Source of the DNA: an uncultured Selenomonadales bacterium
GTDB taxonomy: Bacteria > Bacillota > Negativicutes > Selenomonadales > Selenomonadaceae
NCBI GenBank assembly: GCA_900314765.1
Contig: OMWN01000101.1
Location: 1-43,385 of the forward strand
Length of the DNA stretch: 43,385 bases
Direction: 5' to 3'
The notes beneath the pieces are model-generated. The model was not told the DNA's origin. It made no database searches and worked only from the letters and a program-made list of their open reading frames with translations. Below are positions 3,970 to 41,148 of this stretch, piece by piece; position 1 is the first letter of the stretch, and the number at the start of each line of letters is the position of its first letter. The position numbers and the translations under genes are program-made.

Positions 3970-4225
3970 TAAAAAAGCCCCGTCCCAACAAAGGGACGAG
4001 GCATTGCTCGCGGTTCCACCCTGATTAGCGCTCAAAACAAAATAAGCGCCCTCTCATGTCGCTGATAACGGTGCGTGCCGTTCCCCTTCCGCCGTGTCTC
4101 ATGCGTGGGAAATGCTCAGAAGTGGTAGCTCAATGTCTCATCTGCGGCGCTCTCAGCAATCGTGCCGCTCTCTGTGAGATGACATCCAATGAGTCATGTC
4201 TTCCTCATAGCTCAAATATCGTGTA
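3970..4225 (-). promoter_or_regulatory. T-box leader of thrS (threonine sensing)
   Basis: The minus-strand leader ends with the T-box antiterminator sequence GGTGGAACCGCG, then the intrinsic terminator GCCTCGTCCC-TTTGTT-GGGACGGGGC with a T-run. A long stem I region precedes it. Its probable specifier is an ACC (Thr) codon in GAGCTACCACTT. Uncharged tRNA-Thr would stabilise the antiterminator and let transcription enter thrS. T-box identity is clear; the exact specifier assignment is my reading. Confidence 0.92.
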
Positions 4226-4801: not shown

Positions 4802-5059
4802 ACCCTCTCCGCCCCCTGCGGGGGCACCTCCCCCAGAGTGGGAGGCATAGCGAAAGCGATGCTTCACATTATAATTAAAAGCGAATGGCAGGTTCTTCAA
4901 TTTACAGGCAAAGTAAACTACATGTTTTTATTTACGATGGAAATTTGCACTAATGATTTTCTCAATGAATCGTTTCAGCTAATGCAAATAATCTCAGAAT
5001 CTGTGACGCCAGCCTCCCACTCTGGGGGAGGTGCCGAGCGAATGCGAGGCGGAGAGGGT
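4802..5059. repeat. MITE-like palindromic-ended element, copy 1
   Basis: The element starts ACCCTCTCCGCC and ends GGCGGAGAGGGT. Each end carries a further inner palindrome (GGCACCTCCCCCAGAGTGGGAGGC on the left, its near mirror on the right). The interior is AT-rich, contains no convincing gene, and shares sequence with the other copies (a stretch near TTCAATTTACAGGCA matches copy 2 on the opposite strand). The element fills most of the 480-bp gap between higA and cbiK. Confidence 0.85.
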
Positions 5060-5142
5060 TTGGTTAGGCTTATAAGTCGCTTACAAATCTTGCATTTGAG
5101 GTTGACGCAATCGAAACATTTCTCTCTAATCCTTCCCACCCC

Positions 5143-6589: not shown

Positions 6590-6805
6590 CCCATTCTCGA
6601 GGGTACATCGATGAAAGAATCAGGCAGTTTTCCTGGCTACAGGTCATCGCTCCATGGCGTCTTCCCAGGGCATGCTCCCTCGTGACAAATGCCATTTCGC
6701 TCGCTGTTACAGTGGCGAGACCGCGCTAGCTTATCTAGCTTTTCTTTTGAGTGCTGGGAAATATCTTCCCATCACACCTAATCCGCTTCAATATTCAATT
6801 CGCTT
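6590..6805 (-). promoter_or_regulatory. cobalamin riboswitch upstream of cbiK
   Basis: Reading the minus strand, the conserved landmarks of the B12 aptamer appear in order: GCCACTG, then CTGGGAAGACGCC, then the B12 box AGCCAGGAAAACTGCC. A terminator follows at 6525-6557, so control is probably by premature termination when adenosylcobalamin is abundant. The aptamer is over 300 nt from cbiK, with two more hairpins in between. Confidence 0.9.
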
Positions 6806-21307: not shown

Positions 21308-21829
21308 TTATTCTTTTGACCAGACGCACTCCATGAGGTCCTCGTAGACGGCGTCGAGGTGCTGCACGAGGACGCTGAGCATGAGCTGTATCATTTTGCT
21401 GTCGAATGTCTCGTCGACGAATGGCAGGCAGACATCGAGGTAAACGATGCCATCAGGGCGCAGATAATATTTGAAAATTTTATATTGCGCGTTGAGGTCG
21501 TTGAGGTAGTCTTTGATTTTCTCCTGCTTCTTTTTCGAGATGCCGCTCACGACCTGCGTGCGTATGACGGTGAAGACGCTCGTGTCGATGAATATCGCCA
21601 TCGGCAGTATCTGTCCCTTCGTCTCGATGCGCGAGCGGAATATGACGGTCTGATAGTCGTCGTCGAGCGTCTCGGACGAGAAAACGCTGATGTCGTTCTC
21701 CATGAGAAATTCTTGGAACTTCAGCGCCTTCGCGTTTGCCTCGACGCCTTTTTTCTTCTTCGCGCGCGCCGCAGGCTTCGCTTCTTCTTTTATCTCTTTA
21801 TCGTCGCTGTCGATTTTCTTTGCTGCCAT
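21308..21829 (-). CDS. YbjN-like protein with lysine-rich N-terminus
   Basis: About 173 residues. A charged, Lys/Ala-rich N-terminus (about 1-30, ARAKKKKGVEAN) precedes a domain resembling the YbjN family: strands around DDDYQTVIFRSRIE and LPMAIFIDTSVF, a helix KKKQEKIKDYLNDLN, a strand YYLRPDGIVYLDVCLPF, and a last long helix. YbjN domains resemble chaperone-like folds of uncertain function. The ATG at 21829 follows GAGAGGAGC; an upstream in-frame ATG at 21892 has no ribosome binding site. A paralogue lies at 25583-26017 with aligned motifs. Function not known. Confidence 0.75.
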   Translation of the reverse strand: MAAKKIDSDDKEIKEEAKPAARAKKKKGVEANAKALKFQEFLMENDISVFSSETLDDDYQTVIFRSRIETKGQILPMAIFIDTSVFTVIRTQVVSGISKKKQEKIKDYLNDLNAQYKIFKYYLRPDGIVYLDVCLPFVDETFDSKMIQLMLSVLVQHLDAVYEDLMECVWSKE

Positions 21830-21968
21830 GATTTTTGCTCCTCTCAAAAATTTTTCTATTCGTATTATATCGAACTTTATTTTTTCATTCAATATATTTC
21901 AATGGCGCACACAAATTTATTTACACTGTCTACAAATAATGATACAATGACTATGTGAGGTGATGAAA

Positions 21969-22238
21969 ATGCCACAGACAAGCGTGAACATCCGCATGGA
22001 TTCTGAATTAAAAAATCAATTTGAAAACTTTTGCAATGATGTTGGCATGAATATGACGACGGCTTTCAATATTTTTGCCAAGACAGCCGTGCGCGAGCAA
22101 AAAATCCCATTTGAAATCTCCGCGAAAAAAAGCGATCCATTTTACAGCAGCGAAAATATCGCCAGACTGAAAAAATCTATGGCACAGGTTGAGGCCGGCA
22201 AAGCTCATTTCACGGAGCATGAACTCATCGAGGTGTGA
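21969..22238 (+). CDS. RelB/DinJ-family antitoxin
   Basis: An 89-residue antitoxin of a type II module. The N-terminus (TSVNIRMDSELKNQFENFC) is the ribbon-helix-helix DNA-binding part, and NMTTAFNIFAKTAVREQKIPFEI is the classic RelB/DinJ core. The tail (about 55-89) should wrap the toxin. I prefer the ATG at 21969, which follows GAGGTGAT; ATG at 21963 overlaps that site. Its stop lies 2 bp before the toxin ATG, so the two genes are translationally coupled. The module probably autoregulates. Confidence 0.93.
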   Translation: MPQTSVNIRMDSELKNQFENFCNDVGMNMTTAFNIFAKTAVREQKIPFEISAKKSDPFYSSENIARLKKSMAQVEAGKAHFTEHELIEV

Positions 22239-22240
22239 CG

Positions 22241-22504
22241 ATGAGAAAGACATGGCTCGATGCAGCATGGGAAGATTATCTCTATTGGCTGAATCAAGAT
22301 AAGAAAACTCTGAAGAAAATCAATAGGCTTATAGAAGACATTGACAGAAACGGCTACAACTGCACTGGCAAGCCCGAACAACTAAGTGGTGACTTAAGCG
22401 GTTTGTGGAGTGTGCGCATCGATGAGAAAAATCGCATTGTTTTTCGCATCGTCGATGACGCAATAGAAATTTGGCAGTGTGGCTCACATTATCGCGACAA
22501 ATAA
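22241..22504 (+). CDS. yoeB: YoeB/Txe-family mRNA interferase toxin
   Basis: An 87-residue RelE-superfamily ribosome-dependent mRNA endonuclease. The start (RKTWLDAAWEDYLYW) and the end (IEIWQCGSHYRDK, with the catalytic His and Tyr) are signatures of YoeB. The internal GKPEQLSGDLSGLWSVRI and NRIVFRI motifs also fit. The length is normal and no residues are missing, so it is probably active. It is paired with the RelB-type antitoxin rather than the more usual YefM, a mixed combination known from other genomes. Confidence 0.93.
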   Translation: MRKTWLDAAWEDYLYWLNQDKKTLKKINRLIEDIDRNGYNCTGKPEQLSGDLSGLWSVRIDEKNRIVFRIVDDAIEIWQCGSHYRDK

Positions 22505-24012: not shown

Positions 24013-25005
24013 CTATTTCACGGGTGCGGTCGGCGTCGATGGCGCGCCTGTGCCACCTATGGCCTCGCGCATGTCGGTGTCGGCCTTGATGTTGCGGAGG
24101 TTGTAGTAGTCCATGACGCCCATGTTGCCGCTTCTGAGCGCCTCGGCCATCGCATGCGGCACCTCTGACTGCGCCTCGACGACCTTTGCCTCCATCTCCT
24201 GCGTGTAGGCTTTCATTTCCTGCTCCTTCGCGACGGCCATCGCACGACGCTCCTCGGCCTTCGCCTGCGCTATGCGCTTGTCGGCCTCGGCCTGGTCCGT
24301 CTGCAGCTGCGCTCCGATGTTGCGCCCGACGTCGACGTCCGCGATGTCGATGGAGAGTATCTCGAAAGCCGTCCCCGCGTCGAGACCTTTCTCGAGCACG
24401 GTCTTTGATATGTCGTCTGGGCTCTCGAGCACGTCGTTGTGGCTCGCCGATGAGCCGACGGTCGTGACGATGCCCTCGCCGACGCGCGCGATGATGGTTG
24501 GCTCGCCCGCGCCGCCCACGAGGCGATCAATATTCGCGCGGACGGTGACACGCGCCTTTATTTTGAGCTCTATGCCGTTTTTCGCGACGGCAGAGACGAC
24601 TGGCGTCTCTATGACTTTCGGATTGACGCTCATCTGCACAGCCTCAAGCACGTCGCGCCCCGCGAGGTCTATGGCCGCCGAGCGCTCGAACGGCAGTGGT
24701 ATCTGTGCGCGATGTGCCGCAATGAGCGCATCGACGACTCTGTCGACATTGCCGCCCGCGAGGTAGTGCGCCTCGAGCTGATTGACGGAGACGTCAAGCC
24801 CCGCCTTATTCGCTTTGATGAGCGGGAGCACGATGCGCTGCGGCACGACACGGCGCAGGCGCATGCCCACGAGCGTGAATATGCCGACATGGACGCCCGC
24901 CGCTATGGCCGAAATCCACAGGCCAATCGGCACAAAGTGCAGAAAAAGCATGACCGCCGCAATGATGACGACGAGAGAAAATCCCGAGCCAATCAAAAAA
25001 TCCAT
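24013..25005 (-). CDS. floA: flotillin-like protein FloA
   Basis: A 330-residue membrane scaffold protein of the FloA (YqfA, UPF0365) family, which organises functional membrane microdomains. Two hydrophobic N-terminal segments (about 5-27 and 29-48) are followed by the SPFH-type core ([35 protein letters not shown]). A long Ala/Glu-rich helix carries the EA-type repeats ([21 protein letters not shown] split over 205-250). Length matches the family. It heads a three-gene operon with the small membrane protein and the dehydrogenase. Confidence 0.95.
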
Positions 25006-25090
25006 ATTGACCTCCTAACGAGAAAAATCGTGAGTTTGCGAAAAGCTTGTGTCCAGTTTTCGCCTACCACTTCAAAAGATGTCAAGTGCA

Positions 25091-25381
25091 ACCCTCTCCG
25101 CCTCGCATTCGCTCGCGCAAACATGCCACTGGCATGTTTGCCCCCCATTGGGGAGGCTGGCTCCACAGATTCTGTGATTATTTACTTTAGCTGAAATCGA
25201 CTAGTTGCTCTGTCTGTAAAGTGAATGGCTGATGTTTATTTTTTACAACATCGTAAAACAGTAGCCCTACTTGCCTACCAGTAAATTGAAGGACTGTCAT
25301 TCACTTTCGATTACATCGTAAAGCATCGCTTTCGCTATGCCTCCCACTCTGGGGGAGGTGCCCCGCAGGGGCGGAGAGGGT
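25091..25381. repeat. MITE-like element, copy 2
   Basis: Starts ACCCTCTCCGCCTCGCATTC, ends GGCGGAGAGGGT, with inner palindromes at both ends (CATGCCACTGGCATG is extra here). The right half (from ACTGTCATTC through CATCGCTTTCGCTATGCC) matches copies 1 and 5. Together with the hairpin at 25410-25558 it accounts for the 577-bp gap between floA and the next gene. No gene seen inside. Confidence 0.85.
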
Positions 25382-25409
25382 CTTCACAAGCTCATAAATT
25401 TGGGTTATC

Positions 25410-25558
25410 CTCGAGGCGATGCCAGTCCGAAGTAACTTAGCAATTTCTTACAAGCTCTTTAGCTGGCTCCGAAGCGGCATGTTTTCGCTTTTGCCGCGAG
25501 GAGTCCAGCATTAGAGCTTGTCGAAATTGCGCAGTGGATGAGGACTGGCGTCGCCGAG
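25410..25558. other. long imperfect hairpin of about 149 nt
   Basis: Two arms pair over most of their length: CTCGAGGCGATGCCAGTCC with GGACTGGCGTCGCCGAG, AATTTC..CAAGCTCT with AGAGCTTG..GAAATT, and GCTGG-CTCC..GCGGCA with TGCCGCGAGGAGTCCAGC. The loop is rich in T. It lies just after the stop of the YbjN-like gene on the minus strand. There is no T-run and no reading frame of note. It could be a structured 3' UTR, a processed small RNA or a mobile palindrome. Confidence 0.7.
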
Positions 25559-25582
25559 TCATTGTCATCTATTTTACAATTC

Positions 25583-26017
25583 TCATGCCCAAATGGAATG
25601 CATGATGTCCTTGTATGCCTCATTCAGATGGCGAATGATGACGTCGAACATCGCGTAGACCATTTCGCCGACGCTTTCTTCTTCGTCGGACGATATGAGG
25701 CACACGTCGAGGATGAGAGAGCCCGCCTCGTCGATGTAGTATTTTATGGCCTTGTAGCGGCGGTTGTAGCTGTCGAGGAGGCGCAGCACCTCTAGCTGAT
25801 TTTTCTCGGTCATGACTTTCGGCGCGACAAGTATGCGTATCATGCCGTAGACCGATTTGTCGAAAATGACTGCCGTTGGCAGCTTGTTGCCATTGATGTC
25901 GAGCTGCGAGCGATAGATGACGGTGTCGAAGTCATCCTCGAGCTCCTCGACTTTGAAAACGTCCTCGATTTTCTGCTCATCAAGGTATGATTTGAATGTC
26001 TCTGCTTTCTTGTTCAT
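25583..26017 (-). CDS. YbjN-like protein, second paralogue
   Basis: A 144-residue protein aligned with the one at 21308-21829. The match runs through FKSYLDEQKIED / FQEFLMENDI, LEDDFDTVIYRSQL, LPTAVIFDKSVYGMIRILV, YYIDEAGSLILDVCLI and the final helix IRHLNEAYKDIMHSIWA. It lacks the Lys-rich N-terminal extension. The start ATG follows AGGAGACGA. It lies downstream of yqeY on the same strand. Function unknown; probably a small cytoplasmic chaperone-like or sensory protein. Confidence 0.72.
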   Translation of the reverse strand: MNKKAETFKSYLDEQKIEDVFKVEELEDDFDTVIYRSQLDINGNKLPTAVIFDKSVYGMIRILVAPKVMTEKNQLEVLRLLDSYNRRYKAIKYYIDEAGSLILDVCLISSDEEESVGEMVYAMFDVIIRHLNEAYKDIMHSIWA

Positions 26018-29552: not shown

Positions 29553-29580
29553 AGATTTAGCCTATTTTGAGTTTTTGCAA

Positions 29581-29841
29581 GACCCTCTCCGCCCCCTGCG
29601 GGGGCACCTCCCCCAGAGTGGGAGGCATAGGATGAAAGTCTTGAGGCATAAAACTTTACGAATGAATGAAACATTTTACACTTTCATTAGGCGATTGTTT
29701 AGCTAAATTAAGTGTCTCACATTTTCGCATGTAGATTATTTGCCTGTGTAGATTTTCAACTAGTGTAAATAATCACAGCGTCTGTGACGCCAGCCTCCCA
29801 CTCTGGGGGAGGTGCCGAGCGAATGCGAGGCGGAGAGGGTC
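29581..29841. repeat. MITE-like element, copy 3
   Basis: Starts GACCCTCTCCGCCCCCTGCG and ends GGCGGAGAGGGTC, with the inner CCTCCCCCAGAGTGGGAGG palindromes intact at both ends. Its left flank (GAGTTTTTGCAA) mirrors the right flanks of copies 2 and 4, so the true ends may extend further. It separates prmA from rsmE and fills the 305-bp gap between them. Confidence 0.87.
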
Positions 29842-33612: not shown

Positions 33613-33708
33613 CAAAAATAGTGACCCCTATGATTTTATTTTTGTGGTGAGTTTGTGAGTTTGTAAAACTTATGTCCAGTTTCTGCTTAATAATACAGCG
33701 ACGAGATA

Positions 33709-33909
33709 ACCCTCTCCGCCTCGCATTCGCTCGGCACCTCCCCCATATGGGGAGGCTGGATTTACAGATTCTGGAAACATTTAAATTAGCTGAACAATCG
33801 ACTAATGGAAGCGTGAAGTCTTTTATCCTACCGTCTCAGTTCTAAGCATTAAGTCTCTCTTACTTTGCCTCCCACCATGGGGGAGGTGCCCCGCAGGGGC
33901 GGAGAGGGT
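33709..33909. repeat. MITE-like element, copy 4, inside the cteA-cteB gap
   Basis: Starts ACCCTCTCCGCCTCGCATTC, ends GGCGGAGAGGGT, about 201 bp, the shortest complete copy. Inner palindromes are CCTCCCCCATATGGGGAGG and CCTCCCACCATGGGGGAGG. It fills most of the 360-bp gap between precursor and maturase genes. Confidence 0.87.
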
Positions 33910-33926
33910 CTTTTCAAACTCATTCC

Positions 33927-40862: not shown

Positions 40863-40989
40863 AAGAAATTCTAAAAAAAATGGTGACTTATCTGAAAGTA
40901 TACACGAATGAATGTTGAAATGGTAATTTTAATCCGTACGCTGAATTACTTAATGCGTTATAATCTATTGAGTCTCTGCATGTTTCCCA

Positions 40990-41092
40990 TTGAAATGAAG
41001 GACAGTTGTTCGCTATCAATTATATCGTTAAGCACTGCTTTCGCTATGCCTCCCACTCTGGGGGAGGTGCCCCCGCAGGGGGCGGAGAGGGT
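40990..41092. repeat. MITE-like element, copy 5 (right half only)
   Basis: The right end is intact: GAAGGACAGT through CTGCTTTCGCTATGCC and the CCTCCCACTCTGGGGGAGG palindrome to GGCGGAGAGGGT. No matching left end is visible before it, so this is a half copy or a diverged one. The 430-bp gap between purE and 41195 otherwise holds only the purE promoter and leader and the terminator at 41149. Confidence 0.75.
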
Positions 41093-41148
41093 CTGCTTGA
41101 GTGGCAAAAATTCACTTCTTCACTCCACAACCCAAAAAATTTTCCAAC

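Follow-up and report, generated by a model that had tools for sequence, protein, structure and literature searches.

It was concluded that the hairpin at positions 25412–25558 (+ strand) of the window, the whole stretch of 43,385 nt that was analysed, was very probably one copy of a non-autonomous mobile palindrome of ~195 bp, which was named family A and had multiplied within its species. The palindrome was repeated in its genome and absent from relatives, direct repeats flanked it, a filled site could be compared with an empty one, and both a position bias and compensatory changes were recorded.

The long imperfect stem originally predicted at 25410–25558 was found to be real, with a fold far beyond chance on both strands. 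The + strand RNA folded at −87 kcal/mol, compared with −46.9 ± 4.0 kcal/mol for shuffled sequences (z −10.1), and the − strand RNA at −79 kcal/mol (z −11.2). None of the 200 shuffles equalled either value. No gene call spanned the stem, in agreement with the original prediction, however the repeat proved to be longer than had been proposed, as its outer arms reached ~25394 and ~25586. The element was composed of a conserved core of 147 nt (25412–25558, + strand; fold z −10, 51 aligned copies and a covariance-model match) and two short degenerate terminal arms, delimited by flank alignment and column conservation. The left outer arm occupied positions 25394–25411 (+ strand, consensus ATGAGTTTGTGAATATTCC) and the right outer arm positions 25559–25586 (+ strand, consensus TCATTTTATCTATAATTTTACAAACTCAT). 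The sequence TCATTTT was conserved on the + strand just 3' of the hairpin, and the − strand of the right arm contained stop codons in all three frames. Rfam scans of the element by gathering score and by E-value gave no family, the best sub-threshold scores being far under gathering.

At least 62 places of family A were located in the source genome (2.33 Mb, 103 contigs) by the union of a pattern and a covariance model. The right-arm pattern was present at 61 places, and the reversed control pattern at none. The covariance model of the core returned 66 rows, five of which were opposite-strand readings of the same palindromes; one of the 61 remaining places was new relative to the pattern list. 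A DNA search of the same genome, with the best 40 of 344 candidates scored, returned at least 45 rows, and left-end matches near some contig ends suggested a few further broken copies there. A single-copy RNA gene was ruled out by the copy number, and the earlier idea of a unique RNA gene was contradicted both by the number of places and by the absence of family A from relatives.

The alignment of family A comprised 51 of the 61 copies. Seven copies were left out for an interruption by another palindrome, family D (L039, L041, L042, L046, L051, L064 and L065), one was truncated at the edge of its contig (L043), and two had a poor or undetected left end (L055 and L061); L055 matched the covariance model over its full length. 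The mean pairwise identity of the 51 uninterrupted copies was 0.90 (range 0.82–0.97), the core was 147 nt long in 46 of them, and the per-column identity was 93%. The outer arms were much looser in sequence than the core, as judged from column conservation over the copies. This stronger conservation of the core counted against the mobile-palindrome reading, since simple decay after insertion would not produce it. The inverted ends ATGAGTTTGTGAA / TTTTACAAACTCAT were recognisable in ~20 of the 59 copies listed and degenerate in the others, and the total length was mostly near 195 bp when both ends could be recognised. The element agreed with the general size and copy features of bacterial MITEs (~100–200 bp, dispersed, a stable stem-loop), and it carried the terminal inverted repeats expected of them. 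No description of the family A repeat was found in a literature search.

The core was detected by DNA search in none of 59 relatives, and by the covariance model in none of 40 relatives when strict filters were applied and at most 76 candidates per genome were scored. No copy was present in 188 other genomes of the taxonomic family, where the sole match of 23 nt was read as chance. A 25-nt pattern had no match among viral contigs or in a species-level collection of genomes, from which the source genome itself may be missing. The RNA fold was not conserved between species in the 40 relatives covered by the covariance model. Of the two outcomes named in advance as speaking against such a fold, a lack of conservation in relatives and a lack of a transcript, the first was observed.

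The element was situated between a YbjN-like gene upstream (25583–26017, − strand, 144 aa), whose stop codon at 25583–25585 lay inside the right outer arm, and the flotillin-like gene floA downstream (24013–25005, − strand; Pfam FloA, 548 bits). The neighbour had been called YbjN-like before, and this name was kept as a weak label, the Pfam YbjN match having an E-value of 0.013, under the cut-off. The two genes were 577 nt apart in the window, and the gap consisted mainly of a MITE-like element, family B (~25030–25395), and of family A (~25394–25586). The empty-site comparison comprised one congener genome (G001, 82% complete), in which only 24 nt separated the stop codon of the YbjN-like gene (1993–1995 of L123) from the first in-frame start of floA (2020). 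It was proposed that families A and B would have been inserted between these two genes. Should co-transcription of the two genes persist, a hairpin formed by the − strand of family A would lie between the cistrons. The YbjN-like protein was longer in the congener; truncation of the gene in the window was not established, because the proteins of two other relatives stopped where that of the window stops. Small YbjN-like paralogues were encoded twice in the window (21317–21736 and 25583–26017, both on the − strand) and twice more elsewhere in the genome, and the one at 21317–21736 just reached the Pfam YbjN cut-off.

The flanks of 56 of the 61 copies were compared for direct repeats. The exact direct match between left and right flanks was 6.05, compared with 5.41 ± 0.14 in permuted pairings (z 4.5). 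Clear repeats were observed in L044 (12 nt), L006 (9 nt) and L002 (9 nt), and imperfect ones in L028, L017 and L066. In total, they were clear in only ~6–8 of the 56 copies, with varying length and exact place, and were not seen in most copies, as would be expected if the duplications were old or variable. No constant TA duplication was seen at the ends of family A.

The positions of the copies relative to genes were biased. A stop codon no more than 60 nt from the core was found to the right in 29 copies and to the left in 6 copies (p 1.2e-4). The 3' end of the neighbouring gene pointed at the + strand core in 42 of 61 cases on the right and in 20 of 53 on the left (Fisher p 0.0013), the gene calls around the copies having been made by a simple codon-score caller, not a gene finder. 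A called gene was overlapped by 6 of the 61 copies, in every case at a gene end or in a doubtful start or short call. These data are consistent with an element that would insert preferentially right after stop codons and in one orientation. Every reading frame of the − strand is closed by a stop codon in the right arm. An insertion at or into the end of a gene would therefore do little harm in the favoured orientation, and such tolerance may be the entire cause of the orientation and position bias.

Family A would be mobilised in trans by some enzyme. The Y1 transposase (PF01797) had no match in the genome of family A and matches in 5 of 14 control genomes, Transposase_mut had none in the genome, and DDE_Tnp_1 had two, with neither region carrying the ends of the element. 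Among these three transposase families no parent element with matching ends was found in the assembly, which loses repeats at contig ends. An insertion sequence of the DDE_Tnp_1 type on contig C83 was rejected as the parent, as its ends differed, though a copy of family D was located at the start of that contig.

The origin of the ends was also considered. Insertion of the core into a pre-existing ATGAG...CTCAT site was rejected, since this motif was largely found at the ends of families B and C. Elsewhere in the genome it was present at 49 sites, compared with 2 sites for the reversed pattern, and none of the 20 stretches examined contained a short solo site of 48 bp. An origin of the outer arms in dyad symmetry of the target was likewise discarded, the inverted flank matching (z −1.2, 2.5, 0.3 and −1.6 in four windows) being not clearly above that of permuted pairings.

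Several other palindromic families were present in the same genome. Family B (25030–25395, no strand assigned) was delimited through repeat families D1, D2 and D8 and inverted pairs, with its probable ends placed by a shared terminal motif. It adjoined family A, as the original prediction had stated for a MITE-like copy. The accompanying claim that the two share no sequence was correct for the core only, for the end motif ATGAGTTTGTGAA was present in both elements, in one form or another. The ends of family B were GGCGGAGAGGG, and its copies in the window were located at 25030–25395, 4802–5060, 29580–29840, 33708–33923 and 40976–41104. An end of family B was found within 62 nt of family A on the left side in 9 of 61 copies and on the right side in none. 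Family C (L071, L073, L070 and L074) was ~298 bp long; its ends resembled ATGAGTTTGTRAA, and a block GTCACCCCACCACC...GGGGCGGAC was situated inside it. Family D was a palindrome of ~160 bp (AAGGAAACGCTGATT...AATCAGTGTTTCCT) with 40 scored places (46 rows) in the genome, including loci L042, L046, L110–L121 and L141–L164. Seven of the 61 family A cores were ~305 nt long, owing to a copy of family D inside either arm of the hairpin. Six of these nested copies adjoined GGCTCT in one arm of family A or the mirrored motif in the opposite arm, all with the same orientation relative to it, and the seventh (L041) was situated elsewhere in the stem. Terminal motifs were common to three or more families whose cores differed, and several palindromic families had heavily remodelled the intergenic space of one genome. 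From its gene content and a Phascolarctobacterium match at 52% identity, this genome was placed as probably belonging to the Negativicutes.

The pairing of the arms was analysed for 51 copies and 53 pairs, where 96.1% of the cells paired. Both sides had changed in 19 pairs, compared with a mean of 6.0 ± 1.7 in shuffles (none of 500 equalled the observed number) and 2–7 in slid structures. The covariation analysis recommended earlier was therefore positive with respect to the arms, however it compared copies of one genome, not species. The + strand folded lower than the − strand in 50 of the 51 copies.

The alleles were split by the number of copies carrying them, with 51 copies used for family A and 34 for family D, where 34 of 36 loci out of 40 places passed the length filter, the 7 nested copies among them. 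The G-U alleles outnumbered the A-C alleles among those common to at least 4 copies, by 10 to 2 in family A and 4 to 0 in family D (14 to 2 together). Counts of 7 vs 3 and 6 vs 6, respectively, were obtained for alleles in 2–3 copies, and of 7 vs 9 and 19 vs 22 (26 vs 31 together) for private ones. The contrast between shared and private alleles gave Fisher p values of 0.054 for family A, 0.11 for family D and 0.0038 for both together; it was based on 16 shared alleles, with a cut-off of 4 that was picked once the data had been seen, and neither family was significant alone. Private Watson–Crick double changes numbered 10 in family A and 15 in family D, whereas 0.05 and 0.24, respectively, were expected from independent private changes. 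A tree-based count (63 Watson–Crick to G-U and 18 Watson–Crick to A-C changes) was replaced by the allele count, as a poorly resolved tree recounts shared variants. The unpaired sites leaned the opposite way (16 vs 43 events, with one variable loop position contributing), so a mutational strand bias was an unlikely cause of the shared G-U excess.

Families A and D were unrelated and had the same two-layer signature of variants. It was tentatively proposed, as a possibility of rather low probability, that in both families the spreading variants keep one strand folded and the private double changes come from template switching between the arms. Propagation would pass through the folded + strand, either RNA or single-stranded DNA, because only the variants that spread are wobble-biased. 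The pairing in resident copies would be kept by arm-to-arm template switching, since private compensatory doubles are common and lack a wobble bias. Template switching has been argued by Monttinen and Loytynoja to be able to create and maintain hairpins (PMC8794818). If this two-layer reading is true, palindromic repeats of bacteria can covary without acting as RNA, and allele sharing can separate the propagation layer from the resident one. Covariation routinely counts as strong evidence for RNA function, and family A covaried with no sign of RNA selection in its resident copies. The comparison of private with shared and of wobble with A-C alleles could serve as a simple control for other repeat-derived RNA candidates. 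The wobble contrast and the excess of private doubles are the parts of specialist interest, for which more copies or strains are needed.

The strong two-sided covariation, the lower folding of the + strand and the G-U excess among shared variants would also suit a structured RNA, that is a small RNA or a cis-regulatory leader whose fold is under selection at the locus. Such an RNA was judged very unlikely, as the copies were many and dispersed between various genes, relatives and Rfam gave no match, and the only promoter-like match, with its first hexamer inside family B, compared with 0.7 expected by chance. Selection of RNA in situ predicts more G-U than A-C among private variants; this reading was dropped because the private counts in family A showed no such excess. 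The G-U bias was likewise no proof of an RNA working at the locus, since it was confined to widely shared variants. The compensating pairs on which the original prediction of an RNA fold relied therefore stood as two-sided changes and as a + strand preference for G-U over A-C, but not as RNA function at this site. A bidirectional or + strand transcription terminator, to which the + strand hairpin followed by TCATTTT could point, was considered quite improbable: the T run was interrupted, the terminator scan made no call at the element, and several left-hand neighbour genes already had a clear terminator before it.

It was regarded as rather unlikely that the host now retains the mobile element for a 3'-UTR hairpin that would protect or process the mRNA upstream of it, a role proposed for YPAL in Yersinia. 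Such a role would agree with the finding that 29 of the 42 right-hand − strand genes ended no more than 60 nt from the core and that no intrinsic terminator was seen between the stop codon and the core in 34 of the 42, and a review notes that YPAL might affect the stability of upstream transcripts (PMC2229807). The co-transcribed strand is the − strand, however, whereas the wobble bias among shared variants is in favour of the + strand, and the three-frame stops of the − strand arm also explain tolerance with no benefit to the host. A putative effect on host mRNA through 3'-end protection or processing is likely a by-product of the mobile palindrome.

Family A is a new family of YPAL/ERIC-like palindromes, likened to them by descriptions, not by sequence. 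The nearest known elements were YPAL, ERIC, RPE and related bacterial MITE-like palindromes (PMC2229807), together with the families of a stem-loop survey (PMC2267715). YPAL (RU-2) of Yersinia is described as a dispersed intergenic element of ~168 bp that folds into a strong hairpin, duplicates its target over a variable length, is known from both empty and filled sites and has a tie to upstream transcripts (PMC2229807). Family A was likewise dispersed and intergenic, with a strong hairpin and an empty and a filled site, and showed direct repeats of variable length in a minority of its copies, however the host lineage, the length and the inverted ends were different. By De Gregorio's account of 2006, YPALs are reportedly placed closely downstream of stop codons, and this trait was shared by family A (29 stop codons on the right vs 6 on the left within 60 nt). 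ERIC (IRU, RU-1) is an imperfect palindrome of 127 bp with TA at its termini, and its orientation affects the flanking mRNA (PMC2229807). Family A was an imperfect palindrome of similar size, but without the constant TA. The Rickettsia palindromic elements (RPE) form long stem-loops of 105–146 bp with inverted ends (PMC2229807). They also insert in frame within genes, whereas family A overlapped gene calls in just 6 of 61 copies. REP units are 20–40 bp long (PMC3733652). Both REP/REPIN and family A are intergenic palindromes with many copies. REP and REPIN are mobilised by a Y1 transposase (TnpA-REP, RAYT); the absence of this enzyme from the genome of family A set the two apart and ruled out a REP/RAYT system. 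The stem-loop survey reports 92 families in bacterial genomes, 57 of them with a predicted common fold and the structured ones mostly intergenic, and the genomes it names are other than that of family A (PMC2267715).

Other features of the window included a T-box leader at 3989–4217 and a cobalamin riboswitch at 6606–6796, both on the − strand and above the Rfam gathering score. A tRNA was located at 10–82, and a gene pair for a RelB-like antitoxin and a YoeB-like toxin at 21960–22504 (+ strand).
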